DNA of 64,000 bases from Zanthoxylum bungeanum (lineage: Eukaryota > Streptophyta > Magnoliopsida > Sapindales > Rutaceae), in assembly GCA_019454045.1 (NCBI GenBank), contig SKCR01006518.1, forward strand, positions 186,001 to 250,000, read 5' to 3'. Under the pieces are notes generated by a model. The model did not search any database, was not told the DNA's origin, and was given only the letters and a program-made list of their open reading frames with translations. The translations under genes were made by a program, and so were the position numbers. This document shows positions 5,151-64,000 of this stretch, one piece after another (position 1 is the stretch's first letter; each line of letters opens with the position of its first letter).

Positions 5151-5921
5151 TTACAGATTAAGATTAAAGTCCACTCTACGCTTTTTGCCACGATCGTTAT
5201 CAGACCAGTTCAACTTGGAAAAAATGAGATCCATTTTTGGTTCATAAGCTAAGAGTTGGTCAATTAATTTATCATTTTTTCTTGCAGTTAGGACGATATC
5301 TTTTACCGGTTTCGAAATGAACCCAAGTCTTTTGGCATCCTCAAGAAATACTAAAAGAAAATCTAAAAATGGTCAACATTAAGTAGACCAATGAGTTTTT
5401 GGTGAATGTTCAAGTTCGCCCATTATGTAACTGTGAAGATGTCTTCCAATGTGCCTAGACCACCTAGTAAAGCAATAAAAGTGTCAGCATGATTCATCAT
5501 TTCAGTAAGTCTTTCAGACATACTTGAGATAATGCATTCTTCTCCATTTGATTTTCTGATGAGGTTTTCGTTTGCCAAAGGTTTTGGAATGATCCCCAAA
5601 ACTGGACTACCGCATTCTTGCACAACCTTTGAAACACATCCCATCAATCCAAGATTGCCACCGTCATATACTTAGGGATGAGCAAAATCGGTTTCGGTTC
5701 CGATTCCGCATGGAACCGGAACCTACCCGGAAAAAATCGGTTTCTAACTAAGTGGAACTGGAACCTACCCAATTAAATAGGGTATCCTATTATTTGGTTT
5801 CAATTTGGTTCCGGTCCGGTTCCGAATTACCCTATTTATATAACATTGTAATTATTTATCACACGAGAATAAAATATTGCATAATATTCTTGGCACTCGT
5901 TTGTCTGTATATAAACTAGAT

Positions 5922-6017: not shown

Positions 6018-6254
6018 TTATATGATTTTATTTTTTAATTAAATGATTTTATTTTAACTTTCTATTTTTTAATTTGAAAATTTTTGACTCTTTCCATCAA
6101 TCAATTCACTCTCTTTCCTCCAATTACCAATGAAATGATATGTGCCGTCAATTAAGCCACATAAAGAGAGCCGTTGGATACACTCTCTTTCCTCCAACAT
6201 CATTCTCCTTTATTATATAGATATTACATAAATACAAGTTACAACAACAAATAT

Positions 6255-8714: not shown

Positions 8715-9198
8715 AAAACGACGCTATTTGGCTTATAAAATTACTAAATTAGGGTATAAAATTCGAGTATAAATAGGGTAGAAATTCGATTATGAATTCG
8801 GTTCTATAACTGGTTCTAATTCAGTTCCAGAAATTGGTTCTAAATTCGGTTTCAGAAATCGGTTCTATATTTGGTTCCAAAAATCGATTCTATGATCTGG
8901 TTCCGGTTATTGTCTTTTTAGAATCGGAACCGGACCGGTTAAATTCGGTTCCTTCAATTTGGAATCGAAACTGGACCGGTTATAACCGGTTCAGATTCCA
9001 AACCCGGAAAAACTATCTGGTTCCAACCAGTTCCGGGCCGGAACCGGTGCTCAACCCTACATATACTAAGTGCATGTTTCTTTCCGCCATAACTCTACCC
9101 AATTATTTTGCAGCTTCAACAAATTTTGGTTTAGTTCCAGAGCTAGTTCCACAAAACACACAGATATTAGTGACTCGTCGTCTTGAAGTTTTCTCTAT

Positions 9199-9523: not shown

Positions 9524-10243
9524 CTATGGGTCGGAGATACGCTTCCCATCCAATTTTCTTATAAATTGGCAAACATGGTCTTTTAAAGTCAGATTCCCGA
9601 GACTGTATTGTTGTCTTTCTTTTTGAAATTGTGTATGTAAATTGAGAATTACTCGATGAACATGTCCATTAGGATGCGTCTCAAAAATCAATGATATATC
9701 ATCTAAAGACTCCTTACTCAAGTTATCTCTAATGAATTGAATTTTTATCTTCGCGATTGTCAGACATCATTCCTAAAGAAAGACAACGAGTGTTGCACAT
9801 CCAGCGTGCACATTTATAACAAAAACCTAATTGTTTAGCTCTTCGTTTCTTAGCATAAGTGTTTTTCCCTAAACCAGACATGTAAGAAATGAAAGAGTCA
9901 GACGACTCATCTGCCAAGCGAACCATTGCTTCAATTATCCAACGAATATCACTAGGAATACCATGGATCATAAGAAGCCACATTCTTTCGGTTCGTGCTT
10001 TGTAAATTTTCATCATCAAGATGAAAAGCTTGTCTCAGTTTTTATCAGCATAGATAAAGATAACTATAAGGAAGCCTGATGAGAGTTTATCCTAAGACAG
10101 AAACATAAGACATTAAATGGTAGATCACCCAGAAAAGGTTCAAGGAATTTTTTGGAGTTAAAAAGAAAAGAACCTAACATAGTTCAACAATCTACACAAA
10201 GAGAAGGAAAATATTTGTGAAGTTTTGCGAGAGTTTCTTCCAT
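9524..10243 (-). pseudogene. cysteine-rich basic protein (viral NABP-like), B1 copy
   Basis: Homologue of the ORF at 53759-54307 in A. The start MEETLAKLHKYFPSL is at 10243; about 170 bp of unrelated sequence (~10030-10200) then interrupts it; the rest reads to 9729 and, after a one-base insertion in an A run near 9735, from 9721 to 9524. The same features remain: a basic stretch TYAKKRRAKQLG, then Cys-x2-Cys and Cys-x3-Cys. Family and role are as discussed for the A copy. In B1 the frame is broken and probably makes no protein. The ~170-bp interruption could be an insertion or an intron; it lacks clear consensus ends. Confidence 0.65.
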
Positions 10244-18138: not shown

Positions 18139-18287
18139 GGCTCACATCTTCCTATGGTTTTACGTTTAGTAACGGCTTGAACACCCTCTAAGGGTCGAAG
18201 ATATGCTTCCCATCCAATTTTCTTAAAAACCAGCAAACATTGTCTTTTAAAGTCAGAATCCCGAGACTATAATTTAGCAAAGTGATT
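18139..18287 (-). pseudogene. stub of NABP-like ORF in B2
   Basis: On the minus strand about 28 codons read SLGILTLKDNVCWFLRKLDG, matching the C-terminal end of the NABP-like ORF of A and B1. It shows that the ancestor of B2 carried the extra-ORF cassette before deletion. Confidence 0.75.
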
Positions 18288-18407
18288 TTTTTTTTACAAA
18301 ATACAGAAAACAACAAAAAATATAAAAGATTTGTTTTTTAAAACACATAAAAGTGAAAAAAATATATATAATGTTAAATTATTACTCTATCTATTAAATT
18401 TTATTAC

Positions 18408-38879: not shown

Positions 38880-39863
38880 AATACCCCCAAACTTAAGGTT
38901 TTGCTAGTCCCGAGCAAAAGATAAAATAAAAACTAAATTCAAATAACAAATAAAAATTACTAAATTAACTAAGTCACTTTCGTAGGGATCACGATTGCAT
39001 TTAGCATATGCAACAAGCCTTTAAACCCCTAGGCGGCCCTAGTGGACGAGTTATAGTCTCGTGAGGGCTTACAGCGACGACACCCACAAACGTCATTCAC
39101 ACAATCACGCAAAAAATATAAAAATAAATAAAAGAAATATCCCGATAGTTGCACATAAAATTTTTCCTCAAAGAAAGCTTATAAATGAAATTAGAGAACT
39201 TTCAAAGTACGCAATTGCAACTCGAATCCAAATTCTGAATAAATTATCTAAGCTAGACTCAAGGTGTGTGTGTAAAGGTTCATCACAGCTTTGATCTTAA
39301 GTAAGCCAACTCAATGATTTCGTTTAAAAATTAGAATCAATGGGTCAAACCAACTTAGATATCTCAATTATGCTCTGTAATTGCTTTATTTTGTGCTCAG
39401 TATGGTATGATTTTCTTTTCTTTTCTTGTCTCTTTTTTTTTTTTCATTTTTGCACCTTTTTTTTTTCAACTCACCTACCCTTAAGGTAGCATTTCTCCTC
39501 ATGGTGGTCCTAATACTCGCCCATGGGTAGCTTCACGCTTATCGGTTATAGGTGGTTTATTTTCTTTCTTTAGAGACACTTTTCTTTTCTTTTTAGCTAT
39601 ATCATACTTCATAACACTAGCAAATCAAGATAGATATCTAAGCAAACGGTCATTCATCGACATGCAATTTCTTCAACTGATCACCTTGTCAACTACTTAA
39701 GTTTTACTGCTAAAAACCTATTTTTAAGTGCTTACGAGTCTAACATAGATCAATTATTCAAGGCATCAGATAAAAGTAAATTAGGCACTTATCGTTTCTA
39801 AAATTTCACCCATAAACAAACAATATTATCACAAGATTTATGCTTTACTATCAAAGACTAAAA

Positions 39864-39906
<43 letters not shown>

Positions 39907-40235
39907 AATTTAAACAACTAAATAGCAAGTAAACAACATGCACACACCCCCAAACTTAAAATTTGCATTGTCCTCAATGTAAGATAAATATCAAGAGCAA
40001 GAGTGAGGAACAACACTACCGTGCATGGAGTTGATCAGACTCTTGCTGGTTGAAATTTGGTTGCGCGGGCGTTGTGTGTCTCGTACTACCTGCATAAATA
40101 ACATGCAAATAAATAAATAGCACACAATAAAATAAAAATTAAAAATAAAGAAAATAATAATAAAATAAATGCAAGGGTTGCCTCCCCGCTAGCGCTAAGT
40201 TTAACGTCTTCAGCCAGACGCAACCACCCAAATGG
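38880..40235 (-). other. D 3' spacer and polypurine tract
   Basis: AATACCCCCAAACTT at 38880 gives a minus-strand polypurine tract AGTTTGGGGGTATT next to the LTR. 38974-39090 is the conserved block shared with A, A2 and C. 39440-39560 matches the C spacer. A T36-type run is at 39867-39902. 40175-40210 holds the AGCGCT/GGGAGGCAACCC motif. The ORF at 39061-39294 is a shadow. Confidence 0.8.
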
Positions 40236-41339
40236 TTATGGTGGCTTAAACGTAGTGAACCGGGTAATCTCATCTGTTTTCTTCTTTGGTATCCACCGGT
40301 TCTTATGACATGAAAAAGATAGCTTGGCAGGCTGTGGTGATTTATCCATAGATGGTCCCCCAGGATATGTAGATTTTCTCTCAATTAGAAATTCTGGACT
40401 GCACGTTCGGCAAAACTGGCTCGGTTTTCTTTTTAATCTTCCAGGAATTATCTCTAAGTGAGAACTGGCCTTTCTTTTCCTCTTTTTACGGCCCTTTGGG
40501 AGTGGTTTCGAGTTTAGCTGCAGAGAATTTTCCTTTATGCTTGGCTGCATTATGCTTATAGGCTGTTGAAATACTGATTCACCCTGTCTGGTTTCAACTC
40601 CCTTTTCTACTGTATCTATCATGTGACAGTCTGCGTCACCTTGAGAACTCGGCATGGCTCTGAAAACACTGAAGGTGATTTCTTCATTTTGACCTCTAAT
40701 TATCAATTCACCTATGTTTTCTTCTTCTGTTACTGTTTCCTCCTGAAATACCATTTCATCTTCTTTACTGCCTAAGTCCTGAGAGGTGTCTTTAAACTCT
40801 TTTCCGCTCCTACAGGTTCTAATTTGACATTGCTCATTGGGGTTGACTTCAGTATCACTCGGAAAATCCCATGTCTGTTGATTGGCCATGGAAGAAGCAA
40901 GCAACTCAATTTTTGCTTCTAAAGATTTCATATTTGCCTCTATATTGCCCATTCGTGTTTCGATATTATCCAGCATTGACTCATTCTTCTCAAACCTCTC
41001 TGAGCTTGTAGCTACAAACGTGATCATGAGGTCTTCTAAGGAAGGTTTCTGCTCAACTTTTGGATAATTGAAGCCATGAGGAGGTTGCAAAATGTTCTCC
41101 ATATCAGCATATGAAAAATTCGGATGATAATAATTAAGCATATGACTGCCTCTACAGTTGTTGAAGTTCCAATTGTTCACATACTGCACTTGTTCAAATC
41201 CTGCTCCTCTGTTGGATAAAAACATTCCATTAGCAGAAACAGCTTCAATCGACGGTTGACTCATTTGATTTATCAATACTGCTAGATGAGTCGTGAAGGA
41301 CGATACTTCAGCTATCAGTGCACTAACAGGATCTGTCAT
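40236..41339 (-). CDS. D gag-derived fusion protein, intact
   Basis: Complete 367-codon ORF, ATG at 41339 (MTDPVSALIAEVSS), stop at 40238-40236. It begins in the later half of gag: residues ~70-170 match C gag (QKPSLEDLM, SERFEKNESMLDNIETRMG, a likely coiled coil). Residues ~215-245 (EITFSVFRAMPSSQGDADC) match the end of C protease, so the gag core and the protease active site are deleted. The C-terminal ~95 residues have a basic patch (KGRKKRKRK), two or three Cys (CRTCSPEF) and the tail GGPSMDKSPQPAKLSFSCHKN, RWIPKKK, TFKPP shared with C. That tail is conserved though pol is gone, which suggests a function, perhaps RNA binding. No catalytic motif. Expressed from the D 5' LTR if active. Confidence 0.8.
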   Translation of the reverse strand: MTDPVSALIAEVSSFTTHLAVLINQMSQPSIEAVSANGMFLSNRGAGFEQVQYVNNWNFNNCRGSHMLNYYHPNFSYADMENILQPPHGFNYPKVEQKPSLEDLMITFVATSSERFEKNESMLDNIETRMGNIEANMKSLEAKIELLASSMANQQTWDFPSDTEVNPNEQCQIRTCRSGKEFKDTSQDLGSKEDEMVFQEETVTEEENIGELIIRGQNEEITFSVFRAMPSSQGDADCHMIDTVEKGVETRQGESVFQQPISIMQPSIKENSLQLNSKPLPKGRKKRKRKASSHLEIIPGRLKRKPSQFCRTCSPEFLIERKSTYPGGPSMDKSPQPAKLSFSCHKNRWIPKKKTDEITRFTTFKPP

Positions 41340-41564
41340 TGGTTCTTTTCAAACTCACCTCGTAAGAAAAAAATAAAACAAAAATAAAAATAAAATCAAA
41401 TCAAATCAAATAAGAAAAAAAGAAATAATAACAAAAATAAAAATAAAACTTAAGACAAAAATAAAGGAAATAAAAATAATAAAATTAAAATTAAAATTAA
41501 AATAAAATTCTAAATTAAAGCTAAAATTACTTGGTAGTAGTATTAATGTGAATTAAACAAACAA

Positions 41565-41582
41565 TCCCCGGCAACGGCGCCA
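41565..41582 (-). promoter_or_regulatory. D primer binding site (tRNA-Asp, perfect)
   Basis: Minus strand TGGCGCCGTTGCCGGGGA, complementary to the last 18 nt of plant tRNA-Asp including CCA. Six bases from the LTR end. Confidence 0.95.
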
Positions 41583-41588
41583 AAAACT

Positions 41589-42995
41589 TGTTGTGATATT
41601 TTATATCGTACCGCAAGTGTACGGTGTCAAGTTTTAGTATAAATCAGTGAAAGAGTGTCGAACCCACAGGGATTGCGTTAACTCGCACTACGTACTACAA
41701 TTGATAATCCTAACTTTATTTAGAAAACAATTAATAAAGATTTTTATAAATAAATAAATATAAAAATAAAAATAATTATATAGGAGGAACTAATACGATA
41801 GAGACTCTGGATCCTGATTTCACCTAGCTGTTACCTATGTATTTGTTATGTCAATTAATCCTTGTTCAGATATATTATTTATAAGTCAAGATCCTAAAAT
41901 ATCCACTCCCTCTCTCGAGTGCCGAGTGAAAATATTATCAACTATAGACTTCGATATCTCTATAAAAATCCAATAGTTAATAACTCATTACGATTTGTGA
42001 TTCTATGTTAACGACTTCAAAGGACTACAGATTCTCTCGAACTCTATAAAACCCTAGGTTATATTCTCTAGATCTATTCAAAATCCCCTCTCTCGAGTGA
42101 TAGATTCTAAACATTCATCATCTCAAATTGTGGCCAGCAATCAAGAAGCATTAAACTCAAAAGAATATAAATAATTAATAAAACTTCATTACAAAACTGA
42201 TAAACAAAATACAAGGTTTGAGCATAGATTACAATCGTTCTCCAAAATTAAGGAGTAAATTCATGACAAAAGATAAAACAATAAATAATCAAGCCACGAA
42301 TTTAATGGAAATCATTAGAGTCTTAAGAAAGAAATAAGAAGATAAAACCCGAATTGAATCTCTTCCTCTTCGGATATTACAGCCTTTGTCTCCTCTTGTC
42401 GCTCTTCAATCCTCTCCTTGGATCTCTAAAAATATGTGTTTTGTGTTTTGTGCTCTGTATTAGCCTCCCTTTTGAATGTTGGATGTAATGTTATATTTAT
42501 AGTTGAGGCTGGGAGTCTTAGGGTATCATTAGGATTATTGAAAACCCTAAAATCACTTTCCCGGAACGTGTCAGGTCTTCTCGCAGCGCCGCGGCGCATA
42601 ATCCTCGGCATTTTGTATGAGAATTGGCAATTTAGGGCGCCGCGGCGCCTGGCTCTCTTCATTGGCGCCTCGGCGCCCTATGTTACTCCATGAATGGGCG
42701 CCGCGGCGCCCATTGCTTGTGGTTAATGGCGCCGCGGCGCTTAAGCTCCTGGATTTTGTATGGGGAGCTAGCGCCGCGGCGCTAGTTGTATGAGAAGCTT
42801 GAGGTGCTTTGGTGTCTGCGTGTCCTGTGTCTTCCCGAAAGTTCCCAAAACACGTGCAATTATTCCCCGATCCATATATTAATGCTCCTATAAATAAAAC
42901 ATAAAATAAATTATAAATCATATTAAATATCTCGAATTATAACAAAATAATAAGCTGAGAATGTCATAATAAGTGGGTATAAACCACACTTATCA
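41589..42995 (-). repeat. D 5' LTR
   Basis: Same ends and length as the 3' LTR. Promoter on the minus strand with TATA (ACTATAAATATAAC) at about 42491-42503 and six GC palindromes upstream at 42585-42785. Confidence 0.95.
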
Positions 42996-43000: not shown

Positions 43001-44369
43001 TGCACACGGGGAGTCTTCTTCCCCCATGGGGTATCTGCCTAACTGCCTCGGATCAGGAGAAGCATGGCATGGTGAGGTTTCTGCCCTTATAGCGCTTGCA
43101 GACTCTAGAGCCGCCCAGCATGAGGAGGTTTCTGCCCTCATGGATTCGACCGCTCACCGATCCGTAGCCCGACTAGCCGAGATACTGAATTGTAAGATTC
43201 AGAATTGTGTTTTGGGAGGCACCAGGCAGGACGCTGCCTCGGGGCACTCGAGTTGATATCTTTTTTGGGTCTGTGTGGAGTATGTGGTAAGTCACCTCCG
43301 TTGTGCTAACTTAGTCTTGTTTCCACTTTTTTGTTTTTGCTGATGTCCGGCAATGGGACTCCTGCACCGGGATCCGCAGAGCCTCAGAGGTTGAAATTCT
43401 TCCCTCATGATTAAGTCTCATATGTTCCACCAGCTCGGGGCTGGATTAGTTCCATCGTGGCTATCTTGTTCTACCAGCTCATGGCTGGATTCGTTCCGCC
43501 GAGGCTATTATGTTCCACCAGCTCGGGGCTTGATTCGTTCCGCCAAGGTTATGTGTTCCACCAGCTCGGGGCTGGATTCGTTCTGCCAAGGCTATCATAT
43601 TTCTTCAGCTCGGGTCGGGTTACATCCCACTGAGTACATATGATCGGCATGGGGACAGAGCATTCCCTCATTGCCGGATCTTTATTGGTTTAGGGAGGTA
43701 ACATTCCCCCAGAGCCAAGTGTTTCTTCAACTCGGGGTCGAGTTACGTCCCACCGAGTACATATGATCGGCATGGGGACGGAGCATTCCCTCATGGCCGG
43801 ATCTTTGTTGGTCTAGGGAGATAATATTCCCTCAGAGCCAAGTGTTTCTTTAGCTCAGGGTCGGGTTACGTCCCACCGAGTACATATAATCGACATGGGG
43901 ATGAAGCATTCACCCATGGCCGGATCTTTGTTGGTCTGGGGAGGTAACATTCCCCCAGAGCCAAGTGTTTCTTCAGCTCGGGGTCGGGTTACGTCCTACC
44001 GAGTACATATGATCGGCATGGGGACGAAGCATTTCCCCATGCCCGGATCTTTGTTGGTCTGGGGAGGTAACATTCCTCAAGAGCCAAGTGTTTCATCAGC
44101 TCGGGGTCGGGTTATGTCCCACCAAGTGCATTTGTCATCGGCTCGGGGACGGAGCATTCTCCTCATGGCCAGATCCGAATTGATCAGGGTCAGAATTTCT
44201 TCTCACATTCATACTCAGAAGAGCAAGTTAGTAAATTGAAAGAAGAAATTTAGCTAAGTATGGGAAGCAGGAAGTAGAACATTCAAAATGTATAGCAAAG
44301 AAGAAATTGTGCATTGTTATTAAAAAATAAGCGTATTGTTTGGTACATAGGGCCCCATTAGGGTCACCC
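43001..44369. repeat. F tandem-repeat region
   Basis: Four ~44-bp units (GTTCCACCAGCTCGGGGCTG type) start at 43424, 43468, 43512 and 43555. Nearly five 123-bp units start at 43601, 43723, 43846, 43969 and 44092 (TTCTTCAGCTCGGGGTCGGG, GAGTACATATGATCGGCATG, GAGGTAACATTCCCCCAGAG). It lies downstream of the antisense ORF. Plus-strand frames through it are repeat artefacts. Confidence 0.9.
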
Positions 44370-47828: not shown

Positions 47829-48716
47829 TGTTGATTGTGATTTTTGTGACTAAGGTATTTGAACAGTTCGGAAAAGGTAGAGATGGGATTTTCCCTTTTG
47901 GAAGATCAGATGTTTAGAAGATTTGGTTTGTTCCTCAGCCAGGAAGAGAGTCCGGACTCAGTTTCCCGAATCTGGACGACTAGAGAAATATCATTGTACA
48001 GACCGCAGAGACCGACAATATTATAGCCGAGACCGACCACAGTAGCCCGGTAAGCTCGGTTCAGTTCTGTTTCACCTCATGTGTCGTAATGGATGGCTCG
48101 GATATTCTGGGTCAGGTCGGTAATATCTTTTACTGTTCGGAAGATCATCTGGCCGATCTCTTGAAGACCGACGTGTGACTAGGGTAGTTTGGACTTTTCC
48201 TTCTAACATACATCACAATTTGAAAGCTCTTTACAGGCTGGTTTCATTATGTTGCGTGTGGTAGTGTATAAAACAAGTTGATGTGACAAGCCGTCAGGTG
48301 GCAGGTTTGCTTTCGGCGAAGACAGTCTTGGGGCAAAAGCCCGTCAATCAGCCAGAGATCACGTGGATGACATCAAGAAAGCATGAGAATGGTGTTGTAA
48401 TTCTCTGAGTATATAAAGAGAAGTGAGATTCATTTGTAAAAGGATATCGAAATTTGTAACAAAAGAGGGAGCACTATCTGTAAAAACCAACGAAACAAAC
48501 AGCTCGGTTTCCTTTAGACCCGCCCCTAAACGAGTCGGTCGAGCTCAGTTTGGTAATGAAAATAATATTCCACTTTGTGCCCGTGGAAGTAGGCTTGACT
48601 TGCTCCGCCGAACCACGTTAAACTCTTTTTGTCGATTTTGTGTTCATTTTGCCTTTTGCTACATTTGCTTTTGGTCTCCCATAACCAAATAAATTCAAAG
48701 TTGAAGGAGGATTGTC

Positions 48717-51487
48717 TGACCGGCGTAAACACACATGTATAACGCAAGCGCACGTATCGTTCAAGTAGTAAAAATATATCAAGCGATCCCACGAGGACTT
48801 AATATCTAAACTATTAATTTTATGAAGTCAAATGATTACTAGTATCTAACAGGTTGTTTGATTGATTTGAAATGGTGACGATTCTAAATTTAAAAACAAG
48901 TAAATAAAATTATTCGAAAGTAGGTTTTAAGAAAATTCAATATTAAAAACTATCTAGGGTTGTAATTTCTTCCAATATCATTTAAAAGATGAAGTGGTTA
49001 TCTTAAAGTTGGGTAATATATTGATTTATTAACCTGGAACACTAAATTATGTAAAAGCCTCTTCCGATGGTCAACTACAAATATCCAGTATAACCCAATT
49101 GAACTATATGTCTATGTCAACCAAATTACCTGGATCATTAAGATTAAGTTCCAATTATGGCTACCCCCGCCCGACAGGTATATTCCTATCCTGTAAGGAA
49201 ATGTATTAAAGGGTTATCTATCCTCAAGGAAGATCGTGGGCTATTGAGTTTAAGGTCTTAAACTTAAAATCTCTATGTCTAGTTCATTTTAAGTTTACCA
49301 GTTCAATTTTATTAATGGCCAGTTAATGAAAAAACATTAAGATTAAGACTCAATAAATAAATCTAAAATTAATTACCATTACCCAAACTATAATTTAACC
49401 CCTTATAAACCGGTGATATTGGAATTCATCACAACCCCAGATATCTAACTTAGTTACGACACATAACTAGGGCTAATAAAAACTTAAAAGTAAAAGACAT
49501 AAAGTAAAAATGCTGAAAAGTAATTGCAGTAAAGTAAAAGCTGAAAAGTAAATTACAATAAAATAAAATGCTAAGGTAAAAGGAATTACTTTTAATAATA
49601 CTAATTTAGATATCTCCCATAATATAATATATAAACTTGTGATAACATTACCAACCATTACCAAGCCATATAAGCGGTAACCTGATTAAGTCAAATTAAG
49701 TCCAACCAGCACAGCCATTAAGGCGGTAAAAAGATTTGTCCATGAACCTGCCATATAGGCGGTAAGAAAGTTTAATTTAATTACCAATCGACCAATCTGA
49801 AAGGTATCCTTGATTAGTCAGGTTTAAACCAGATTAAAATGAATTACCAACCGACCAATCTGGCGGTATCCTTTTTAAGTCAATATTTTAAATAGTGAAT
49901 ATATTATATTTAAGGGAGATTAATCTAAATAGCAATAGTAAAAGAATTATCTTTCACCCTAGCTGGGGAAGTTACCTCCTCATGGTGAATAGTAAAAACT
50001 GTAAAAAGTAAGAAGTAAATTATTATTATTACAAAAAGTAATAAAAATTTAATTACAAAACTAAAATTAAAAGAAACTAGAGAGAGAAACTCCATCTTTA
50101 CATCAAAGAAATGAGAGGAGTGGTACAGTGACAACTGAAACTGGAATTTCGCGCTCTATTTATAGGCATCAGTAAGGGTCGAGCGTCGCGCGACGCCTGT
50201 TTGGTCGACGTGGCAGCTTCTGGTTCGTCGGTTCGTTGAAGATTCTGGATAAGGTGATAAGGTGACACGTGGCAAGGTGGTTGGGGCTCAATTATTGTGA
50301 CACGTGGTGTGGCTTCTGATTGGTCGACTAGATTCTTATCCGCCACGTGTCAGATAGAGCCAATAATTGATGCTGACATGGCGACACATGGAAATTTGAT
50401 TGTCGGCACCATAGAATCTCGACACGTGGCACGCTGTGATTGGTTTATGATGACGTGGCAGTTTGACTCGGTCAACCTGGTGATGTTGACGATGACGTGG
50501 CAATGACATGGAGTGACACATGGCGACACGTGGCGATGGTGACTGTTGGTACCGTAGGATGATGACACGTGGCACGGCGCATGTTAGCAGATCGGCTGTG
50601 ATGGTGACACGTGTCACGGCGTACGTTAGCAAAGTCAAATTTTTCTCAGATTCTGACTTGTGGACCCGGCGCACGTTAGCACTGTTCGGCGCACGTTACG
50701 CGTCACGACGCCAAGGGTTTGCGCGTCGCGACGCGCCTAAATTACCAAAATGCCATTTTTGCCAATTTTCACTATTTTGCTCCAAATTACCTCCAGAATG
50801 TCCTGAAACTTTATTTATCTACAAAATAACACAAAACACATCAAAATATTCACAAAAATCAAGAAACTATACAAAATATTAAGTTAAATGAGTGGGAAAT
50901 AATGATAGATTTTAGGGGTGAACACAATTTCGGGTCAAACCGCGAACCGCATCGAACCGCACCGCACCGAACCGAACCGCGCAGTTTGAAAAAATATTAA
51001 AAATAATTTTGAACCGCACCGAATCGAACCGCAAATTTCGGGTCGGTGTGCGGTTTTGACCCATGTCAAACCGCAAACCGCCCAAACCGCATATTTTGAC
51101 TCGAACCGCGACCCGAACCGCCTAAACCGCCGACCCGCGTACAAATTAAATATTATTTTATATTTTTCTTCTTCTTTAACTATGAAAATTAAGATATTTA
51201 ATGATCATATAACAATATGTAATGAATAAATGAAAATTATGTAATTTTTTCTTCAATTATAATGTGAAAACACACAAAAGTTACTTTAAAAAATTTATAA
51301 TCCAAACCGCCGAACCGAACCGCCCAAACCGCTAAACCGCCAACCCGAACCGCCGCGGTTTTCCTTATCAAATTTACGGTTTCGTTTTCTAATTTTCCAA
51401 ACCGCCAACCCGCGCGGTTTGAAGTAAAAAATGAAAAAACCGCCCAAACCGCACCGCGAACACCCCTAATAGATTTACCACTCATCA
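48717..51487 (-). repeat. A 3' LTR (with MITE)
   Basis: 2771 bp, or 2207 bp without the MITE and its duplication; the 5' LTR is 2200 bp. TATA at 50156-50165 on the minus strand. G-box/ABRE array at about 50205-50640. Hairpin units, partly degraded, at about 49660-49870. Confidence 0.95.
50913..51468. mobile_element. 556-bp hAT-type MITE, copy 2
   Basis: TAGGGGTGAACAC...GCGAACACCCCTA with perfect 8-bp duplication ATAGATTT (50905-50912, 51469-51476). Inverted relative to the copy at 14004-14559, same length. Interior dominated by AACCGC repeats at both ends around an AT-rich core. No ORF. Confidence 0.95.
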
Positions 51488-52148
51488 CACCCTCAAACCT
51501 AACATTTTGCTAGTTCTCGAGCAAAACACAAAATAAAATAACATAATAAAATTTAACTAAGCCACTTTTGTAGGGATCACAGTTGCATTTAGAGTATGCA
51601 ACAAGCCTTTAAACCCCTAGGTGTCCCTAGTGGACGAGTTGTAGTCTCGTGAGGCTTTACATCAATGATACCCACAAACATTTTACAAAAGTAAAAAGAA
51701 AGTAAAACTAATACACACAAAAGCAAAAAAACAAGCGAAAAGAGAATAAAGAAGTTAATGACTAATCAGGTGAAACTTCTACTCCAAGTTATCAATTGTT
51801 TTGTTTCTTTCTAAATTACTGAATAAGTAAATTCTCCGATCATTTTTACCATTCTTCATATACACAGTCAACATAATATTAAACAACTCATTTTTTCCCA
51901 CAACAGTCATAAGTGCAGTTGATAAGAGAGTAATATTTTTGTCCTAAAATTCTATCAGATTTCACACCTTTTGTAGCAATGGAATAATTTTTTGGATTTT
52001 TCTGATTTTTTCTTTGATTTTTGATTTTTTTATTTATATACAATATCTTCCATCTATGTAGCGAGTGTTGGGTCGGTGGCTCCCAAACCAGTTGGCTTTA
52101 GGGCACCAGGTGTTAAGACACCCCTACGGACTTAATTACTCAGACTTT

Positions 52149-52207
<59 letters not shown>

Positions 52208-52854
52208 TTGCAGCATCTTTGATCCATGTAGCAAGCTTTGGGCCAGTGATTCCCAAACCAGTTGGTTTTAGGGCACTAGGTGTTAAAACACCCTTACAGA
52301 CTTAATAACTCGGATCTCAGACGTTTTTTTTTTACTCCATTGCTTTTTGAGATGCTTCCTCCAATTAAACTAGAGCACTAAATATTACAAACTTTTCAAT
52401 TACAGTTCATGTCCGTATGTTTCCATGTATGTTGATAATACCTGTCAATTGAGCATATGAAGATCCATTTTAGTTAGTTTTATGGAGAATTCACAAATTA
52501 AATAATTTAAAAATGAAATAAACAAAAATTAACTTGTTTCGAAATAGGTTTGAGATACGTTTCAGGAGTGAAAACTCCTTACTCAGCTATCTCTTACCAA
52601 TTTCACCTTTTTAGTCAAAATAAAAACACAAAAACACAAAATATTTTTGTAATTTTTGAAAAATTTTCAAATTTTTTTATATTTTTCGAAAATTTTTAAA
52701 AAAAATACTAAAAACAACACACAACTAAAAAGAAGATACTAATCAACTAATTCCCACCCCCAAACCTAAATGAGACATTGTCCCCAATGTCTTAAACAGT
52801 AAAAGAATAGTTTAGAAGATAGTACCTGGTTAGCTGAAATTCTTACACGAAAAG
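51488..52854 (-). other. A 3' spacer
   Basis: Starts with a C-rich stretch (minus strand polypurine tract GGTTTGAGGGTG). 51561-51675 is the conserved block found in A2, C and D. Two structured modules begin at 52057 and 52227, separated by an AT microsatellite (52147-52206). No ORF. Confidence 0.8.
52147..52206. repeat. (AT)n microsatellite
   Basis: AT run with one break, lying between the two structured modules and lengthening their period from 144 to 170 bp. Confidence 0.95.
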
Positions 52855-53508
52855 TTAAAGGTTAAGATCCAGATTAACAGGACGCCTCTTACCACGATCG
52901 TCCTCAGACCAATTTATCTTTGAAAGGATAGGGTCAACTTGTGGTTCATAGGCTAAGAGTTGGTCTATTAGATCCGGAGCAGTTCTGGCAGTAAAGAGTA
53001 GTTCTTTTAAATGTTTTGACACGAACCCATTTCTTCTAGCATCATCAAGAAACACACAAAGAAAATCATAAAATCCATCAACGTTAAATAGCCCAATTGG
53101 TTTCTGGTGTATGTTCAAGTTCGCCCAAGATAGCACTATAAAAATTTCCTCCAATGTGCCCAAGCCACCTGGCAAAACAATAAAAGCATCAGCACGGTTA
53201 ATCATTTATACCAGTCGTCCAAACATACCTGGCACAATAAGTTCCTCTCTGTTTGATGGTTCAATAAGATTTTCCTCTGCCAAGGGTTTTGGGATGATTC
53301 TCAAAACGTGATTGCCTCCTTCCTGTATGGCATTTGAAACGATCCCCATTAGTCCAAGATTGCCTCCGCCATATACTAAGTGCATATTCCTTACTGCTAA
53401 GACTCGACCCAATTCCTGTGATGCTTCTACGTATTGTGGCTTAACACCAACATTAGTACCGCAAAACACACAGATGTTTTCAACTCGTCTTCTTGATGTG
53501 GCTTCCAT
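52855..53508 (-). pseudogene. LOG-like cytokinin riboside 5'-monophosphate phosphoribohydrolase in A
   Basis: ATG at 53508, 217 codons, TAA at 52857-52855; plant LOGs are about 210-230 residues. LOG enzymes cut the ribose 5'-phosphate from cytokinin nucleotides and release active cytokinin in the cytosol. Seen: NICVFCGTNVG (11-21), LVYGGGNLGLMG (44-55, phosphate loop), IIPKPL (71-76), GMFGR (94-98, with the conserved Arg), PGGLGTLEE (113-121, the family signature), then WANLNIHQKPIGLFNVDGFY. The only lesion is an in-frame TAA at codon 101, where B1 has Glu (TEM); the codon change is one base. No introns, so the gene probably came in as a processed copy. It lies between the NABP-like ORF and the 3' LTR, on the sense strand. 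The family assignment is firm; activity of the family's ancestral protein is inference. Confidence 0.9.
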
Positions 53509-53758
53509 GTTTTACTCTGGATGTCTTCAAAAGTTAAATGATGAGTTGAATTTATAGTACCTGAAAAAGGGTGAGTAAAATAATAGCACTAGTATCTGCC
53601 AAATGACAATTATTAGTTAAACAGTAAAATAAATCGTGATAGTCAAAAAGGTCTGGATCCTGTCGGAGAAAATAAAAGAAAACAACAAAATAAATTACAA
53701 TTATTAGGAAAAGACAAAGAGATATAATATGTACAAGAATTTACATCTTGATTGACGT
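53509..53758 (-). other. A spacer between NABP-like ORF and LOG
   Basis: 250 bp of AT-rich non-coding sequence, homologous to 9199-9523 in B1. How LOG would be translated (subgenomic or spliced mRNA) is not evident. Confidence 0.6.
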
Positions 53759-54307
53759 CTATGCGTCAGGGACAAGCTTCCCATCCAATTTTCTTATAAA
53801 TTGGCAAACATGGTCTTTTTTAGTCAGATTCCCAAGACTTAACTGTTGTCTTTCTTTTTGAAATTGTGTATGTAATTTTCGAAAGGCTATGTGAACATAT
53901 CCACTGGGATGCATCTCAAGAGTCAAAGATATATCATCTAAAGACTCCTTACTCAAGTCATCCCTAATGAATTTAATTTTGTCTTCGCGATTATTAGACA
54001 CCATTCCTAAAGAACGACAACGAGTAATGCAATTCCAGCGTGCACATTTGTAACAAACACCCATTTGTTTAGCTCTATGTTTCTTTGCATAGGTGCTTCT
54101 TCCAAAACCAGGCAGATGTGAAATAAAAGAGTCAGAAGACTCACCTGCCAATCGGACTCGTGCTTCAATTACCCAACGAATGTCATTAGGAACACCATGG
54201 ATTGTCAGTAACCTCATCCGTTCCAAGCGAGCTTTGTAAACTTTCATCATAGATTTTTTAGGGAGAGAAGGAAATTGCTTGTGAAGATTTGCGAGAGCTT
54301 CTTCCAT
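53759..54307 (-). CDS. cysteine-rich basic protein, viral NABP-like, intact
   Basis: Open to 54340; I choose the second Met (MEEALANLHKQFPSL, 54307) because B1 keeps it, giving 182 codons. Seen: a Leu/Ile-rich helix (about 30-50), basic GRSTYAKKHRAKQMG, then Cys-x2-Cys (CYKC) and Cys-x3-Cys (CITRC) about four residues later, then EDKIKFIRDD. The order of helix, GRS-Y-A-basic cluster, CxxC finger and Arg-Cys is that of the nucleic-acid-binding cysteine-rich proteins of carlaviruses and relatives, some of which suppress RNA silencing. The C-terminal ~65 residues are unlike them. Homologues in B1 and, as a stub, in B2. Likely role: RNA/DNA binding, perhaps defence suppression (inference). An unrelated zinc-binding protein is possible. 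Follows integrase by 139 bp. Confidence 0.55.
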   Translation of the reverse strand: MEEALANLHKQFPSLPKKSMMKVYKARLERMRLLTIHGVPNDIRWVIEARVRLAGESSDSFISHLPGFGRSTYAKKHRAKQMGVCYKCARWNCITRCRSLGMVSNNREDKIKFIRDDLSKESLDDISLTLEMHPSGYVHIAFRKLHTQFQKERQQLSLGNLTKKDHVCQFIRKLDGKLVPDA

Positions 54308-54381
54308 CTTGAAATTTCTTAATCTGCAAAAACTAAACACATAAAATTAAATCACACCAAATCACAATATATACAAAAATT

Positions 54382-54415
54382 GCATGGGTTGCCTCCCTGC
54401 AAGCGCTAAGTTTAA
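54382..54415 (-). promoter_or_regulatory. conserved AGCGCT...GGGAGGCAACCC motif in A
   Basis: Minus strand TTAAACTTAGCGCTTGCA followed by GGGAGGCAACCC lies in the 139-bp gap between integrase and the NABP-like ORF. Same motif after the last ORF of C and D. Candidate for a splice, transcription or RNA-structure signal serving the downstream ORFs. Confidence 0.6.
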
Positions 54416-54446
54416 ATGTCGTCAGCTAGACATGACTTCTTGAACG

Positions 54447-55856
54447 TTAGGCTGGATCTGAAAGTGTGACACTTTCTTTTTGTCGCTCAAATGATTCTCC
54501 CCAGTAATGCTTGACACGCTGACTGTTAACTTTGAATGTGTTGTTGGTGTTGGGATCCGGTAACTCAACAGCTCCATAAGGTAAAACCTGAGTGATCACA
54601 AATGGACCTGACCACCTAGATTTCAACTTTCCAGAGAAAAGTTTCAACCTCGAGTTGTACAACAACACCTGCTGCCTTGGTTCCAACAGTCTGTGCACTA
54701 TTTTTCGGTCATGCCATTTTTTGGTCTTTTCCTTGTACAATTTGGCATTCTCATAAGCCTGTAGGCGAAATTCCTCCAATTCGTTGAGTTGGTGAAATCT
54801 TTTCTCTCCTGCAGCTTGTGAATCAAAATTCAACTTCTTCAATGCCCAGTACGCCTTGTGCTCAAGCTCAACTGGCAGATGGCACGCTTTCCCAAACACC
54901 AATCGATATGGGGACATACCAATGAGTGTCTTGTAAGCTGTCCGGTAGGCCCATAATGCATCATCTAGTTTTCTTGACCAGTCACTCCTTGTTGATCCAA
55001 CGGTTCTTTCTAGGATTCTTTTGATTTCCCTATTTGAAACCTCAACCTGTCCATTTGACTGTGGATGGTAAGCTGTGGCATACTTGTGAGTAACTCTGTA
55101 TTTGGATATGAGTGCATCAAAGTATCTGTTGCAGAAATGAGAGCCACTATCATTGATGATTGCACGAGGTGTTCCGAACCGAGTAAAAATATTCTTTTTC
55201 GGGAATTTGATCACCACTTTTGAATCATTGGATGGTAATGCAATTGCTTCAACCCATTTGGAGATGTAGTCTACAGCAACCATGATGTACATGTTTCCGA
55301 ATGATGTAACAAAAGGTCACATGAAATCTATACCCTACACATCGAATATTTCCACTTCTAGAATGTTTTGCAATGGTCCTTCGTTTCTCCTGGAAATATT
55401 TCCCGTTCTCTGGCACCTGTCACATTGAAAAGCAAAAAGATAAGCATCTTTAAAAAGAGTAGGCCAGAACAAACCTGATTGTATGACTTTGGCTGCAGTT
55501 TTGTTTCCGTTGAAGTGTCCACCATATGGTGATGAATGACAGTGCTGCAAAACACTGTTGATTTCCTCCTGTGGAACACACCGTCTCAATAATTGATCAG
55601 CACAATATTTGAACTAGTACGGTTCATCCCAGATATAGTGCTTGACTTCTTTGAAGAACTTCTTCCGTTGCTGAGTTGTCCATTCCAACGGCCCTTTTCC
55701 TGACACAATGTAGTTGACATAGTCAGCATACCAAGGGACTTCCTGTTGTTTCATGGCAAACAGCTGTTCATCTGGAAAAGTTTCTTTGATTGACAGATCT
55801 TTGTCAGCTGTTTCTCTATTCTCGAGCCTCGATAGATGATCTGCCATCTGAAGCAT
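54447..55856 (-). pseudogene. A pol remnant: RNase H tail and integrase
   Basis: Minus strand: ADHLSRLENRETADKD (end of the RNase H connection), EVPWYADYVNYIVSG, then the zinc-binding HHCC region (LQHCHSSPYGGHF, CDRCQ), FDV-stop-GIDFM-stop, and an open 281-codon integrase core and tail (55292-54447). Catalytic D8, D48 and E84 of that frame give D,D(35)E exactly. [20 protein letters not shown] and [11 protein letters not shown] are Athila wording. Stops lie at about 55614, 55335 and 55310; the TAG in FDV*GIDF replaces Trp. Reverse transcriptase is missing; the join to protease is at about 55857 and also shifts frame. Product inserts cDNA in the nucleus when intact. Confidence 0.85.
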
Positions 55857-57982
55857 TCTTCTTCCTTTTCATCGCTCGGGAATTTCATGGCTTTGAAAAC
55901 ATTAAAGGTCACTTATTGGTCATGCACTTTCATGGTCAGTTCTCCTTTTTGCACATCAATCACAGTTTTACCTATAGCCAAGAATGGTCTCCCAAGAATG
56001 ATAGGTATTTATTTGTCTTCTTCCATGTCAAGGATGATGAAATCTGCTGGGAGAATTAGTTTGTCTACTTTGACCAGCACATCTTCAACAACACCTCTTG
56101 GAAATGCGAGTGTTCGGTCAGCAAGTTGCAATGAAACTGAGGTAGGTATTACTTCTCCAATCTGCAGTTTCCTGTAAATAGAAAAAGACATCAAGTTAAC
56201 ACTGGCTCCTAAATCACATAAAGCCTTACCGATGTAATGTTCTCCAATGGTGCATGGGACAGTGAAGCTGCCAGGATCTTTCAACTTCGGGGGAAGTTTC
56301 CTCTGAATGATGGCGCTTCATTCTTCCATTAATGCTACTGTTTCGTAGTCTCCCAATCTCCGTTTTCGTGAAAGAATGTCTTTTATGAATTTGACATAAT
56401 TGGGCATTTCTTCCAAGGCTTCTGCAAATGCGATGTTGATGTGAAGCTTTTTGAACACCTCCAGGAATCGAGCAAATTACTTGTCCAGTTTTTTTTTCTG
56501 AAGTCGTTGAGGAAAAGGTGGAGGTGGAATGATCTGTTCTTTTTCCTTTGCTTCTTTTTCCTCCATCTGTTGCTCTGATTCTTTTGGAACTTCTTCTTGG
56601 GACACCTTAATTCCAACATCTTTGTTGATTTCAGTACCGCTTTTCAAAGTAATGGCTTGACATTGCTCCTTCCATCGGTTCCTTGGATTGGGTTCTGTGT
56701 TGCTGGGAAGATTACCTGGTGGTCTGTAACTTTGAGCATTGGTCAGTTGTCCGATTTGATTCTCCAGTGCTTTGATGGAAGCTGATTGGCTCTGAAAGAT
56801 AGCATCGTACTTTTTTAACTGAGCCAGCACTTCTACTATTCCTGGTTCATTTGCCTGCTCCTGGCCTTTGTTTTGTTGCTGGAATCCAGTTGGTGGATAG
56901 TTCTGCTGTTGGAATCCAGGTGGTGGAATGTTCTTTGGCCTGAATTGTTGCTCCATGAAAAATTAGGATGATCCTCCACCCTGGGTTGTGTAGGTGTTGG
57001 AATATGGATTGTTCCCCTGTCTGTTGAAATTGTAGACATAATTCACCGTCTCTTCAAGTTGGTTCGACTCTGGTGCTCCTCCATATGGTGAACTTGTGGA
57101 TCCAGTGGTAAGAGTCTCCATGAATTTGCATATCTGATCTAACTTTGCGTTGACTACTGTATTGGGTCCACTTTCATAAATTCCTGCAATTCTTTGGATC
57201 ATGCTCTTTTCTGTTGGCCACAAGGAATTGTTGTTGGCCATTTCTTCGATTAGTTCCCAGGCTTGATCTTCTCCTTTCGCCATTAAAGCTCCTCCAGCAG
57301 CAACATTGATTGTGGTTCTCATTATTCCAGAAAGTCCATTATAGAATATTTGGACTTGAAGCCATTTTGGAATCTCATGGTGAGGACATTTCCGGAGCAA
57401 ATCTTTGTACCTTTCCCAAGATTCATAAAGAGTTTCTGAGTCTTATTGTACAAAGGATGTGATGTTATTCCTCAGTTTTCCAGTTCTGGCTAGTGGAAAG
57501 TATTGTGTAAGAAATTTGGTGGCTAAAGTGTTCCAAGTTATGATAGAACCTATTGGTAGTGTATGTAGCCAAGCTTTAGCTCTGTCCTTCAAGGAGTATG
57601 AGAAAACACGCAATCTCATTACTTCTTCAGCTTCTCGGTTGTAATTGAAAGTGCCGCAAACTTCCAGGAAGTTGCTGATATGGGCATTAGGATCTTCAGT
57701 TGCATTCCCTCCAAACTGAACTGACTGTTGAATCATCTGAATGCATGTTTTGATGTCACCCGCATTTGCTGGTAAGAGAGGAAGTACAATACAAGAAATG
57801 AGTCTGTTAACCATCGGAATGGTTCTGTCTCAAATGGGAATTGGTGGTGCAACCTCCAAAGGTTCAGGTTCCATGTTGACTAAAGCTTCTTGGCCTTCTC
57901 GCCTTTCCATTCTCAATTGTCTGGTGGTTCTTTCAATTTCTGGGTCAAGCGGTCGAAGTTCACAGCTTCTAGTTCGTCTCAT
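55857..57982 (-). pseudogene. A gag-protease
   Basis: One frame from ATG at 57982 (MRRTRSCELRPLDPE). Gag core: FGGNATEDPNAHISNFLEVC, FSYSLKDRAKAWLHTL, RKCPHHEIPKWLQVQIFYNGL, then the Gln/Asn-rich spacer, AITLKSGTEINKD, and protease KALCDLGASVNLMSFSIYRK, RTLAFPRGVVEDVLVKVD, with GRPFLA near 55990. In-frame stops at 57832-57830 (TGA), about 57445-57443 (TAA), near 56960 and near 56479, plus others, break it. I see no CCHC knuckle, unlike B1. Frame is otherwise kept, so decay is mainly point changes. Confidence 0.85.
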
Positions 57983-58091
57983 GAAGTTTCTGAGAACCTG
58001 AAACACAAGAAAACAAAAACAATAAGTAAAAAGAAAATTAGATACAAGTAAATGTATCTAACCTTAAAACTAATAGTGAAAGATAAATAAG

Positions 58092-58109
58092 TCCCCGGCA
58101 ACGGCGCCA
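58092..58109 (-). promoter_or_regulatory. A primer binding site (tRNA-Asp, perfect)
   Basis: Minus strand TGGCGCCGTTGCCGGGGA, 18 of 18 complementary to the 3' end of plant tRNA-Asp; six bases from the LTR. Confidence 0.95.
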
Positions 58110-58115
58110 AAAACT

Positions 58116-60315
58116 TGACCGGCGTAAACACACACGTATAACGCAAACGCACATATCGTTCAAGTAGTATAAAAATATCGATCCCACGAGGACTTAATAT
58201 CTAAACTATTAATTTTATGAGGTCAAATGATTACTAGTATCTAACAGGTTGTTTGGTTGATTTGAAATGGTGACGATTCTAAATTTAAAAACAAGTAAAT
58301 AAAATTATTCGAAAGTAGGTTTTAAGAAAATCCAATATTAAAAACTATCTAGGGTTGTAATTTCTTCCAATATCATTTAAAAGATGAAGTTGTTATCTTA
58401 AAGTTGGGTAATATGTTGATTTATTAACCTGGAACACTAAATTATGTAAAAGCCTCTTCTGATGGTCAACTACAAATATCCAGTATAACCCAATTGAACC
58501 ATATGTCTATGTCAACCAAATTACCTGAATTCATTAAGATTAAGTTCCAATTATGGCTACCCCCGCCCGACAGGTATATTCCTATCCTATAAGGAAGTGT
58601 ATTAAAGGGTTATCTATCCTCAAGGAAGATCGTGGGCTATTGAGTTTAAGGTCTTAAACTTAAAATCTCTATGTCTAGTTCATTTTAAGTTTACCAGTTC
58701 AATTTTATTAATGGCCAGTTAATGAAAAAACATTAAGATTAAGACTCAATAAATAAATCTAAAATTATATTACCCAAACTATAATTTAACCCCTTATAAA
58801 CCGGTGATATTGGAATTCATCACAACCCCAGATATCTAACTTAGTTACGACACATAACTAGGGCTAATAAAAACTTAAAAGTAAAAGACATAAAGTAAAA
58901 ATGCTGAAAAGTAATTGCAGTAAAGTAAAAGCTGAAAAGTAAATTACAATAAAATAAAATGCTAAGGTAAAAGGAATTACTTTTAATAATACTAATTTAG
59001 ATATTTACCATAATATAATATATAAACTTGTGATAACATTACCAACCAGCCATATAGGCGGTAACCTGATTAAGTCAAATTAAGTCTAACCAGCCATTAA
59101 GGCGGTAAAAAGATTTGTCCATGAACCTGCCATATAGGCGGTAAGAAAGTTTAATTACCAACCGACCAATCTGGCGGTATCCTTGATTAGTCAGGTTTAA
59201 ACCAGATTAAAATGAATTACCAACCGACCAATCTGGCGGTATCCTTTTTAAGTCAATATTTTAAATAGTGAATATATTATATTTAAGGGAGATTAATCTA
59301 AATAGCAATAGTAAAAGAATTACCTTTCACCCTAGCTGGGGAAGTTACCTCCTCATGGTGAATAGTAAAAACTGTAAAAAGTAAGAAAGTAAATTACTAT
59401 TATTACAAAAAGTAATTAAAATTTAATTACAAAACTAAAATTAAAAGAAACTAGAGAGAGAAACTTCATCTTTACATCAAAGAAATGAGAGAGAGTGGTA
59501 CAACTGAAACTGGAATTTCTCGCTCTATTTATAGTCATCAGTAATGGTCGCGCGTCGCGACGCTCGTTTGGTCGACGTGGCAGCTTCTGGTTCGTCGGTT
59601 GAAGATTCTGGATAAGGTGATAAGGTGACACGTGGCAAGGTGGTTGGGGCTCAATTATTGTGACACGTGGTGGCTTCTGATTGGTCAACTAGATTCTTAT
59701 CCGCCACATGTCAGATAGGGATAAGAGAACCAATAATTGATGTTGAAGTGGCGCTGACGTGGCGACACATGGCAATTTGACTGTCGGCACCATAGAATCT
59801 CGACACGTGACACTCTATGATTGGTTGATGATGACGTGGCAGTGACATGGTAGTTTGACTCGGTCAACCTGGTGATGTTGACGATGACGTGGCAATGATG
59901 TGGAGTGACATGTGGTGACACGTGGCGATGGTGACTGTTGGCACCGTAGGATGATGACACGTGGCACGTCGTATGTTAGCAGATCGACTGTGATGGTGAC
60001 ACGTGTCACGGCGTACGTTAGCAAAGTCAAACTTTTCTCAGATTCTGACTTGTGGACCCGGCGCACGTTAGCACTGTTCGGCGCACGTTAGGCGTCGCGA
60101 CGCCAAGGGCTTGCGTGTCGCAACTCGCCCAAATTACCAAAATACCATTTTTGCCAATTTTCACTGTTTTGCTCCAAATTACCTCCAGAATGTCCTGAAA
60201 CTTTATTTATCTACAAAATAACACAAAACACATCAAAATATTCACAAAACTCAAGAAACTATACAAAATATTAAGTTAAATGAGTAGGAAATAATGATAG
60301 ATTTACCACTCATCA
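58116..60315 (-). repeat. A 5' LTR
   Basis: 2200 bp. TATA on the minus strand at 59524-59533 (CTATAAATAG). Upstream U3 (59571-60012) holds about ten ACACGTGGC/TGACGTGG motifs. Five hairpin units at 59045, 59089, 59125, 59161 and 59223. Palindrome GGCGTCGCGACGCC near 60089-60102. Confidence 0.95.
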
Positions 60316-60371
60316 TTGTCTCGGGATAGTTATCTCGAAACTGCCCCTGGGACGAAAATCATCCGTCAACA

Positions 60372-63364: not shown

Positions 63365-63369
63365 ATGAT

Positions 63370-64000
63370 TGACCGGCGTAAACACACACGTATAACGCAA
63401 GCACACGTATCGTTCAAGTAGTATAAAAATATTAGGTTAGATGAGTGGGAAATAGTGATATAAATATCACTCATCACACCCCCAAACCTAACATTTTGCT
63501 AGTCCTCGAGCAAAACACAAAATAAAATAACAAAAATAAAATTAACTAAGCCACTTTCGTAGGGTTCACGGTTGCATTTAGCATATGCAACAAGCCTTTA
63601 AACCCTTAAGTGTCCCTATTGGACGAGTTGTAGTCTCGTGAGGGTTTACATCAATGATACCCACAAACATTTTACAAAAGTAAAAAGAAAGTAAAACTAA
63701 TGCACACAAAAGCAAAAAGACAAGCGAAAAGAGAATAAAGAAGTTAGTGACTAATCAGGTAAAACTTCTACTCCAAGTTACTAATTGTTTTGTTTCTTTC
63801 TAAATTATCGAATAAGTAAATTCTCCAATTATAATTACCATTCTCCATATACACAGCCAAAAAAATATTAAAAACTCATTTTTGCCCACAACAGTCACAA
63901 GTGCAGTTGATAAGAGAGTAATATTTTTATCCTAAAGTTTTATCAGAATTCACATCTTTTTGCAGCAATAGAATAATTTTTCGGATTTTTTTGATTTTTT
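63370..64000 (-). mobile_element. A2: second family-A element, enters window end
   Basis: A collapsed LTR (63370-63476, 107 bp) preceded by ATGAT, a candidate target duplication (63365-63369), is followed by family-A 3' spacer: polypurine tract (CACCCCCAAACCTAAC), conserved block at 63549-63666, and further sequence collinear with 51488-52010 of A. The rest of the element, possibly with its own LOG and NABP-like ORFs, lies beyond 64000. Confidence 0.9.

Follow-up and report, generated by a model that had tools for sequence, protein, structure and literature searches.

Our data indicate that a LOG-type gene, of the LONELY GUY family of cytokinin-activating enzymes, belongs to the regular gene set of a very large Ty3/gypsy retrotransposon family in Zanthoxylum bungeanum, and that it has been under purifying selection in the element copies as judged by codon comparisons. 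The gene was studied in a window of 64,000 nucleotides (the whole stretch of DNA that was analysed), whose sequence is plant-like and rich in LTR elements. The element that holds it carries a second accessory ORF, related by its profile matches to carlavirus nucleic-acid-binding proteins (NABP). The parts of this focal element are as follows.

48717..60315, minus strand: whole Athila/Tat-type Ty3/gypsy element holding the LOG ORF (LTR pair, TG..CA ends, TTGTC flanks)
60316..60320, no strand: target-site duplication TTGTC, right (flank sequence)
58116..60315, minus strand: 5' LTR (LTR pair comparison)
58092..58109, minus strand: primer-binding site TGGCGCCGTTGCCGGGGA, after the 5' LTR
56963..57829, minus strand: gag, two ORFs with the frame broken between them (Pfam Retrotrans_gag)
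56009..56317, minus strand: protease-type ORF (by eye; no Pfam match)
55335..55613, minus strand: integrase zinc-binding domain, H2C2 (Pfam, E 5.7e-11)
54447..55316, minus strand: integrase core and C-terminus (Pfam rve, E 3.7e-12)
53759..54307, minus strand: NABP-like ORF, 182 aa, open in the focal copy (Pfam Carla_C4)
52855..53508, minus strand: LOG ORF, 217 codons plus stop (ORF reading, Pfam, structure match)
52855..52890, minus strand: C-terminal tail of the focal LOG, KRRPVNLDLNL, a basic cluster and an EAR-like LxLxL
48717..51487, minus strand: 3' LTR, disrupted by a nested insertion (about 555 bases; LTR pair comparison)
48712..48716, no strand: target-site duplication TTGTC, left (flank sequence)

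The two LTRs are 93.9% identical, the termini are TG..CA and the 5-bp flanks are identical (TTGTC). The insert in the 3' LTR lies at about 50909-51467, and a similar stretch is found at 14008-14559. Read from the 5' LTR, the order is primer-binding site, gag, protease-type ORF, integrase zinc-binding domain and integrase. The primer-binding site TGGCGCCGTTGCCGGGGA presumably fits the 3' end of tRNA-Asp. The gag match has an E value of 1e-9 for 57443-57829 and of 0.004, under the curated cut-off, for 56963-57442. The distance from the end of the protease-type ORF (56009) to the start of the integrase zinc-binding ORF (55613) is only about 400 bases, so that the focal element has no room for a reverse transcriptase or for RT/RH as a whole. 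With this and with a stop in its LOG frame, the focal copy is dead. Divergence between the LTRs (K 0.029 over 2155 sites) corresponds to about 1.1 million years at a rate of 1.3e-8 per site and year, or to 2.1 million years at 7e-9. The available text of a survey of plant retrotransposons gives as features of the Athila/Tat (OTA) group the integrase, a 5-bp target duplication, a non-Met tRNA primer site and an extra ORF 3' of the integrase (PMC6317226). The focal element has the integrase, the 5-bp duplication, the primer site and the extra ORF, and belongs to the Athila/Tat group. Within this group Athila is told from Tat by the phylogeny of RT, RH and INT and by a missing aRH.

Several other features of the window were observed. 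On the plus strand at 57372-57478, antisense inside gag, there is an Rfam match to snoR71 (RF00097, 45.7 bits), which is either snoRNA-like sequence in gag or a sign that the Rfam family partly describes this element group. The LTRs of a young-looking pair at 37473-42995 share 99.15% identity and enclose only 2.7 kb; each flank reads GATGG, and part of a similar primer-site stretch lies beside one LTR. A tandem array with a period of about 122 bases occupies 43600-44175, and at the right edge of the window (63369-64000) a further element of the same family apparently starts, its LTR reduced to about 100 bases.

The preliminary description of this DNA had read 52855-53508 as an intronless LOG gene of full length, and the identification is borne out. 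The frame has 217 codons and no intron, and it encodes PGGLGTLEE, the VYGGG loop and, as residue 98, the conserved Arg. Its best solved relative is the Arabidopsis structure 2a33 (At2g37210; E 3.5e-54 with the stop read as X), and Pfam finds LDcluster4 in its first piece (2.7e-7) and Lysine_decarbox in its second (8.5e-25). On the opposite, plus strand the region is full of stops. When the LOG and NABP queries were reversed, they matched nothing in the window at E<=1, and a chance match was rejected on this ground. The gene was also said to lie on the sense strand between the integrase and the 3' LTR; it does lie there, with the integrase at 54447-55316, and runs in the element's own direction, but this is the minus strand of the window. 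The frame is not open, since codon 101 (53206-53208) is an in-frame stop, and the focal LOG copy is therefore not intact.

Copies of the gene were sought across the host genome (3.96 Gb). A search with LOG yielded 8833 candidates at first look; the best 40 were scored (the window copy and L033-L071), each of full length and about 94% identical or more. In the 2.5 to 4.7 kb of upstream sequence examined, the NABP-like ORF is present in 29 of these 40 and the integrase in 27. The LOG frame is uninterrupted in 18 of the 40 (14 of 29 copies with the NABP-like ORF, 4 of 11 without it) and broken in 22; because these are the copies most similar to the window LOG, 18/40 is an overestimate. The LxLxL tail is present in 34/40 and the basic cluster in 39/40. 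A sample chosen by integrase instead comprised the best 40 of 6566 candidates. The stretch from NABP to LOG was analysed in 11 of the 39 other matches, one more (L035) being left out as already in the LOG sample. All 11 have the NABP-like ORF and 10 have LOG, the tail being present in all 10; LOG is therefore a standing part of the family. The frame is open for the NABP-like ORF in 1/11 and for LOG in 1/10, with 9/10 LOGs broken, so that most copies in this small integrase sample are decayed.

Eleven of the 40 LOG-chosen copies (L036, L039, L041, L043, L044, L053-L055, L066, L067 and L071) have neither integrase nor NABP-like ORF in the stretch examined. Ten of the 11 match at least 467 bases of a 1.68-kb segment, and 8 match nearly all of it. 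The segment has a weak resemblance to the gag-side ORF in 2 of 8 tested (29%, E about 1e-5), and LTR-like and PBS-side stretches around eight LOG-only copies match the window element at about 75-88%. By sequence, these copies look like non-autonomous derivatives that keep LOG.

Further relatives of the two accessory genes are present in the window itself. Neither the second LOG copy below nor the NABP-like ORF of the focal element had been noted in the preliminary description.

9527..10016, minus strand: NABP-like copy of a second element (83.2% DNA identity to the first)
9068..9198, minus strand: second LOG copy, 5' part (similarity to the focal LOG)
5151..5672, minus strand: second, decayed LOG copy, 3' part, with frameshift, stops and tail RGKKRRVDFNLNL (similarity to the focal LOG)
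18191..18313, minus strand: third NABP-like copy, C-terminal fragment (similarity to the NABP-like ORF)

An insert of 3.4 kb, with CATATACT on either side as an 8-base duplication, separates the two parts of the second LOG copy. No LOG piece was found in the window beside the NABP-like fragment of the third relic. Between the two window LOGs (5151-9198 and 52855-53508; 216 codons, 4 skipped) dN/dS is 0.22 at dS 1.04. The pair of NABP-like ORFs (9527-10016 and 53762-54250; 162 codons) has a dN/dS of 0.36 at dS 0.39, with a codon-position test at p 0.08. The far higher dS of LOG, compared with the NABP-like ORF beside it, is a hint that element lineages have recombined.

Selection on LOG was examined in the 40 LOG-chosen copies. 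Variants common to at least two copies, taken as mostly arisen during element copying, have an N:S of 57:54 (codon positions 36/24/57), compared with 131:38 (65/58/55) for variants private to one copy (Fisher 8e-6). The neutral N:S for LOG is about 2.3 to 3.1, depending on transition bias. Against a reference of 2.45:1 the shared class differs at p 1.4e-5 and the private class at p 0.06 on the N-rich side; because the private variants are N-rich, the contrast between the classes may partly reflect recurrent third-position changes counted as shared. In a control from 651 bases of the 3' UTR, read in an arbitrary frame in 39 copies, shared variants gave 86:36 and private ones 141:49 (p 0.52). 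The shared variants are thus N-poor in LOG with no such shift in the UTR, which argues that LOG was constrained during proliferation. Pooled pairwise dN/dS is 0.389 at a median dS of 0.096 (28 of the 40 copies), and together with the 0.22 of the window pair and the shared N:S of 57:54 this indicates purifying selection among the element copies. Neither of the outcomes that the preliminary description had named as telling against it therefore holds: other copies do not lack LOG, and this one is not a very recent single insertion of one host gene with no purifying selection among the element copies. Uninterrupted LOGs do occur in other copies, at 18/40 where copies were picked by LOG similarity and at 1/10 in the integrase sample. 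Within the LOG-only group, a test for independent selection on LOG gave no support: of the 40 shared N/S variants in this group, 33 segregate among the other copies too, and the remaining 7 are N4:S3.

For the NABP-like ORF, 28 copies gave 67:50 for shared and 108:17 for private variants (p 3.8e-7). The private variants are N-rich (codon positions 53/50/29), seven shared stop variants were counted, and all variants together (N175:S67) are at about the neutral ratio computed for LOG. The contrast is driven as much by the N-rich private class as by constraint, and the total is near neutral, so the copy sample is no proof of constraint. The dN/dS of 0.36 in the window pair and conservation across plants suggest that this ORF is constrained.

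The element LOG has relatives in other plants. At E<=1e-40, 516 proteins match it; among the 120 matches listed, most are 217 aa long and there are several loci per genome in Paulownia, Reevesia and poplar. Those of 205-260 aa, 98 in number, are referred to here as element-type LOGs. We infer that these proteins of other plants are element genes, from the several near-copies per genome and from two gene models: P0136 and P0104 run into gag- or protease-like pieces, as judged by eye. In a gene model of Xanthoceras, LOG pieces stand, by eye, on both sides of a gag-like one. A LOG tree, proposed at the outset as a check, was built after the element tails had been cut off, from these 98 and the two window rows, 23 host rows (22 of the 120 listed LOG1/3/4-type proteins and one LOG8) and two bacterial LOGs. 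In this tree a single clade (100/96) unites the 100 element-type rows and is distinct from the 23 rows of sampled host LOGs, which group at 100/96, and from the bacterial LOGs. A search of viral contigs with the LOG alignment found only distant LOGs, at 24 loci. The six longest good matches among them, LOG-like genes on IMG/VR contigs (L001-L006), are 32-38% identical to the first member of the element LOG alignment.

The C-terminal tail marks the element-type LOGs. LxLxL is found in the tails of 82/98 of them among the matches listed, compared with 0/120 listed host LOGs, and is lacking in 16/98; the basic cluster is found in 95/98 compared with 1/120. Clustering at 80% identity left 24 representatives, 19 with LxLxL and 23 with the basic cluster. 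In shuffled tails LxLxL arose in 12.4 of 98 on average and in at most 23. Across an alignment of 40 members, the three alternating leucines are conserved at 90% or more. LxLxL is the consensus of EAR motifs, which bind TOPLESS, and by its motifs the tail is NLS/EAR-like. Effectors with EAR motifs that bind TOPLESS are described in the accessible part of a published report (PMC7748000). The model of a relative, P0122, has the LOG fold (mean pLDDT 86) and a tail below 50, a very low confidence from which the tail is predicted to be probably disordered.

Element LOGs share with plant LOG1 and LOG3, the cytokinin riboside 5'-monophosphate phosphoribohydrolases, their length, PGGxGTxxE, Arg98 and similarity over the whole domain, but differ in their separate clade, in the basic and LxLxL tail and in residue 99. 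In the 98 listed element-type LOGs, Arg98 is kept in 90 and the PGGxGT..E residues in 94 to 98. Lys99, beside Arg98, is present in 120/120 listed host LOGs and in the aligned bacterial LOGs, whereas 93 of the 98 element-type LOGs have L (47), M (26) or I (20) there, L being the residue of the focal copy. This loss of Lys99 means that the activity of the element-type LOG may be altered.

The second accessory ORF lies between the integrase and LOG. In the focal copy it scores 24.6 bits with Pfam Carla_C4, above the curated cut-off of 20.9, and 21.7 bits with Viral_NABP, below the cut-off of 23. It has 247 homologues at E<=0.001, with poplar, Xanthoceras, Orobanche, Acer and Rhamnella among the named sources of the matches listed (120 rows), which by eye carry PF01623. 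Carla_C4 was found in 39/47 and Viral_NABP in 38/47 aligned members (E<=0.01), and the cysteine cluster C-x2-C-x4-C-x3-C in 93 of the 120 homologues listed. In these profile matches and in the cysteine cluster it is similar to the NABP and other cysteine-rich proteins of carlaviruses and flexiviruses. It differs from these in being encoded by a retrotransposon and in a weak fold match: the fold was predicted with little confidence (pLDDT 68), and the best viral match in a fold search with it has E 0.52. The first six viral structure matches (E>=0.5) comprise three nucleic-acid-binding proteins, one silencing suppressor, one 15kDa protein and one phage protein, all but the last from plant viruses. 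In the Orobanche gene model P0104 a protease-like start runs into the NABP-like domain (by eye), which fits a place for this ORF inside such elements in another plant. One homologue, P0084, has an extended C-terminus ending NLSLSL and is the sole one of the 120 listed with LxLxL in its last 15 residues. A search of viral contigs for the NABP-like ORF found nothing, none of 41 pattern matches being confirmed.

Two Athila-like elements similar to LOGL4 were reportedly described by Steinbauerova and co-workers in 2011. The preliminary description knew of no retrotransposon carrying LOG, and this novelty was already lost to print: consensus LTR elements from Citrus sinensis and from C. clementina are reported to contain the YgdH domain of the LONELY GUY family, as are those from P. 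trichocarpa when one filter is disabled (PMC9289625). The available text of that study classes these elements as Ty3/gypsy and states agreement with Steinbauerova 2011. The Citrus and Populus elements thus resemble ours in having a LOG-type ORF inside a plant Ty3/gypsy element; the NABP-like partner, the LxLxL tail, a selection test of LOG and LOG-only derivatives, which are described here, receive no mention in the available text (PMC9289625). The same source describes an AlkB-type RNA demethylase ORF in orchid Ty3/gypsy elements, which is likewise an accessory enzyme in a plant gypsy family but a different enzyme in a different element family, and its activity was assayed there, whereas the element LOG is known from sequence (PMC9289625). 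A limited search of the open-access literature found no report of the NABP-like partner and the LxLxL tail of the element LOG. LOG in gypsy elements is therefore known, and the partner ORF, the tail, the selection and the LOG-only forms are new as far as we could find.

The explanation that we favour, at somewhat better than even chances, is a very large Athila/Tat-type family with two accessory genes behind the integrase, the NABP-like zinc-finger ORF and LOG. The element transcript would yield LOG, and we infer that LOG would act as an enzyme in the cells that express it, releasing active cytokinin from its nucleotide. Owing to its tail, LOG would enter the nucleus and act partly there, and the tail may also bind TOPLESS co-repressors. 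The element would benefit because meristem-like, dividing cells would be favoured, and insertions that arise in these are passed on to offspring. Of all this, the data establish the gene content, the position, the recurrence in the genome, the purifying selection on LOG, the clade, the conservation of the tail and the mostly kept PGGxGTxxE and Arg98. According to the accessible text of one report, NABP-type proteins of flexiviruses are called silencing suppressors, and p12 of chrysanthemum virus B is a transcription factor that induces hyperplasia (PMC12172455). An extended version would make the two genes a module for host manipulation, in which a virus-type zinc-finger protein, suppressing silencing or promoting growth as a transcription factor, and a cytokinin-activating enzyme that is nuclear and recruits TOPLESS would together push the host cell to division and away from silencing, while LOG-only derivatives would spread LOG. 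We regard this joint version as rather unlikely, because constraint on the NABP-like ORF is unproven by the copy sample.

It is conceivable, if doubtful, that the LOG fold has instead been repurposed: the enzyme would be weak or dead, or have another substrate, and the selected feature would be a nuclear, TOPLESS-binding tail that hinders the host in repressing or silencing the element. The loss of Lys99 in 93 of the 98 listed element LOGs would fit this, as would a tail absent from all 120 sampled host LOGs among the matches listed, with its three alternating leucines conserved at 90% or more in the alignment of 40 members and lying in a low-confidence stretch of the model, and EAR-motif effectors that bind TOPLESS are known from the accessible part of one report (PMC7748000). 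A pure scaffold, however, would not need PGGxGTxxE and Arg98, which are mostly kept, and dN/dS is well under 1 across the whole domain. The tailed clade could also be an ordinary host LOG subfamily of which one member was recently captured by an element, and some members are indeed annotated LOGL10 in poplar. This is quite improbable, given the several loci per genome in Paulownia, Reevesia and poplar, the Xanthoceras model in which a gag-like piece stands between LOG pieces (by eye), and the two LOG copies of the window, which are at dS of about 1 and yet in the same slot. Passive hitch-hiking, in which the element picked up a single host LOG transcript and simply went on copying it, would account for the missing introns and for the many broken copies (22/40 when chosen by LOG, 9/10 LOGs when chosen by integrase). 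We rejected it as barely credible, because dN/dS is 0.22 at dS 1.04 between the window LOGs and shared variants are N-poor relative to private ones while the UTR control is flat; the members, named from several plant orders, moreover form one clade.

Whether extra ORFs in plant retrotransposons have a function has been questioned in print, in a survey whose available text states that only extra ORFs of at least 250 codons were predicted, a cut-off that would omit both the LOG of 217 codons and the NABP-like ORF of 182 (PMC6317226). With a LOG kept by selection and a second ORF with a recognisable domain, the question becomes testable by ordinary assays. Should the LOG prove active, a growth hormone could be influenced by a mobile element whose candidate copies number in the thousands (8833 at first look, 40 scored). 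If its tail binds TOPLESS, the element would have a transposon-encoded handle on host repression.
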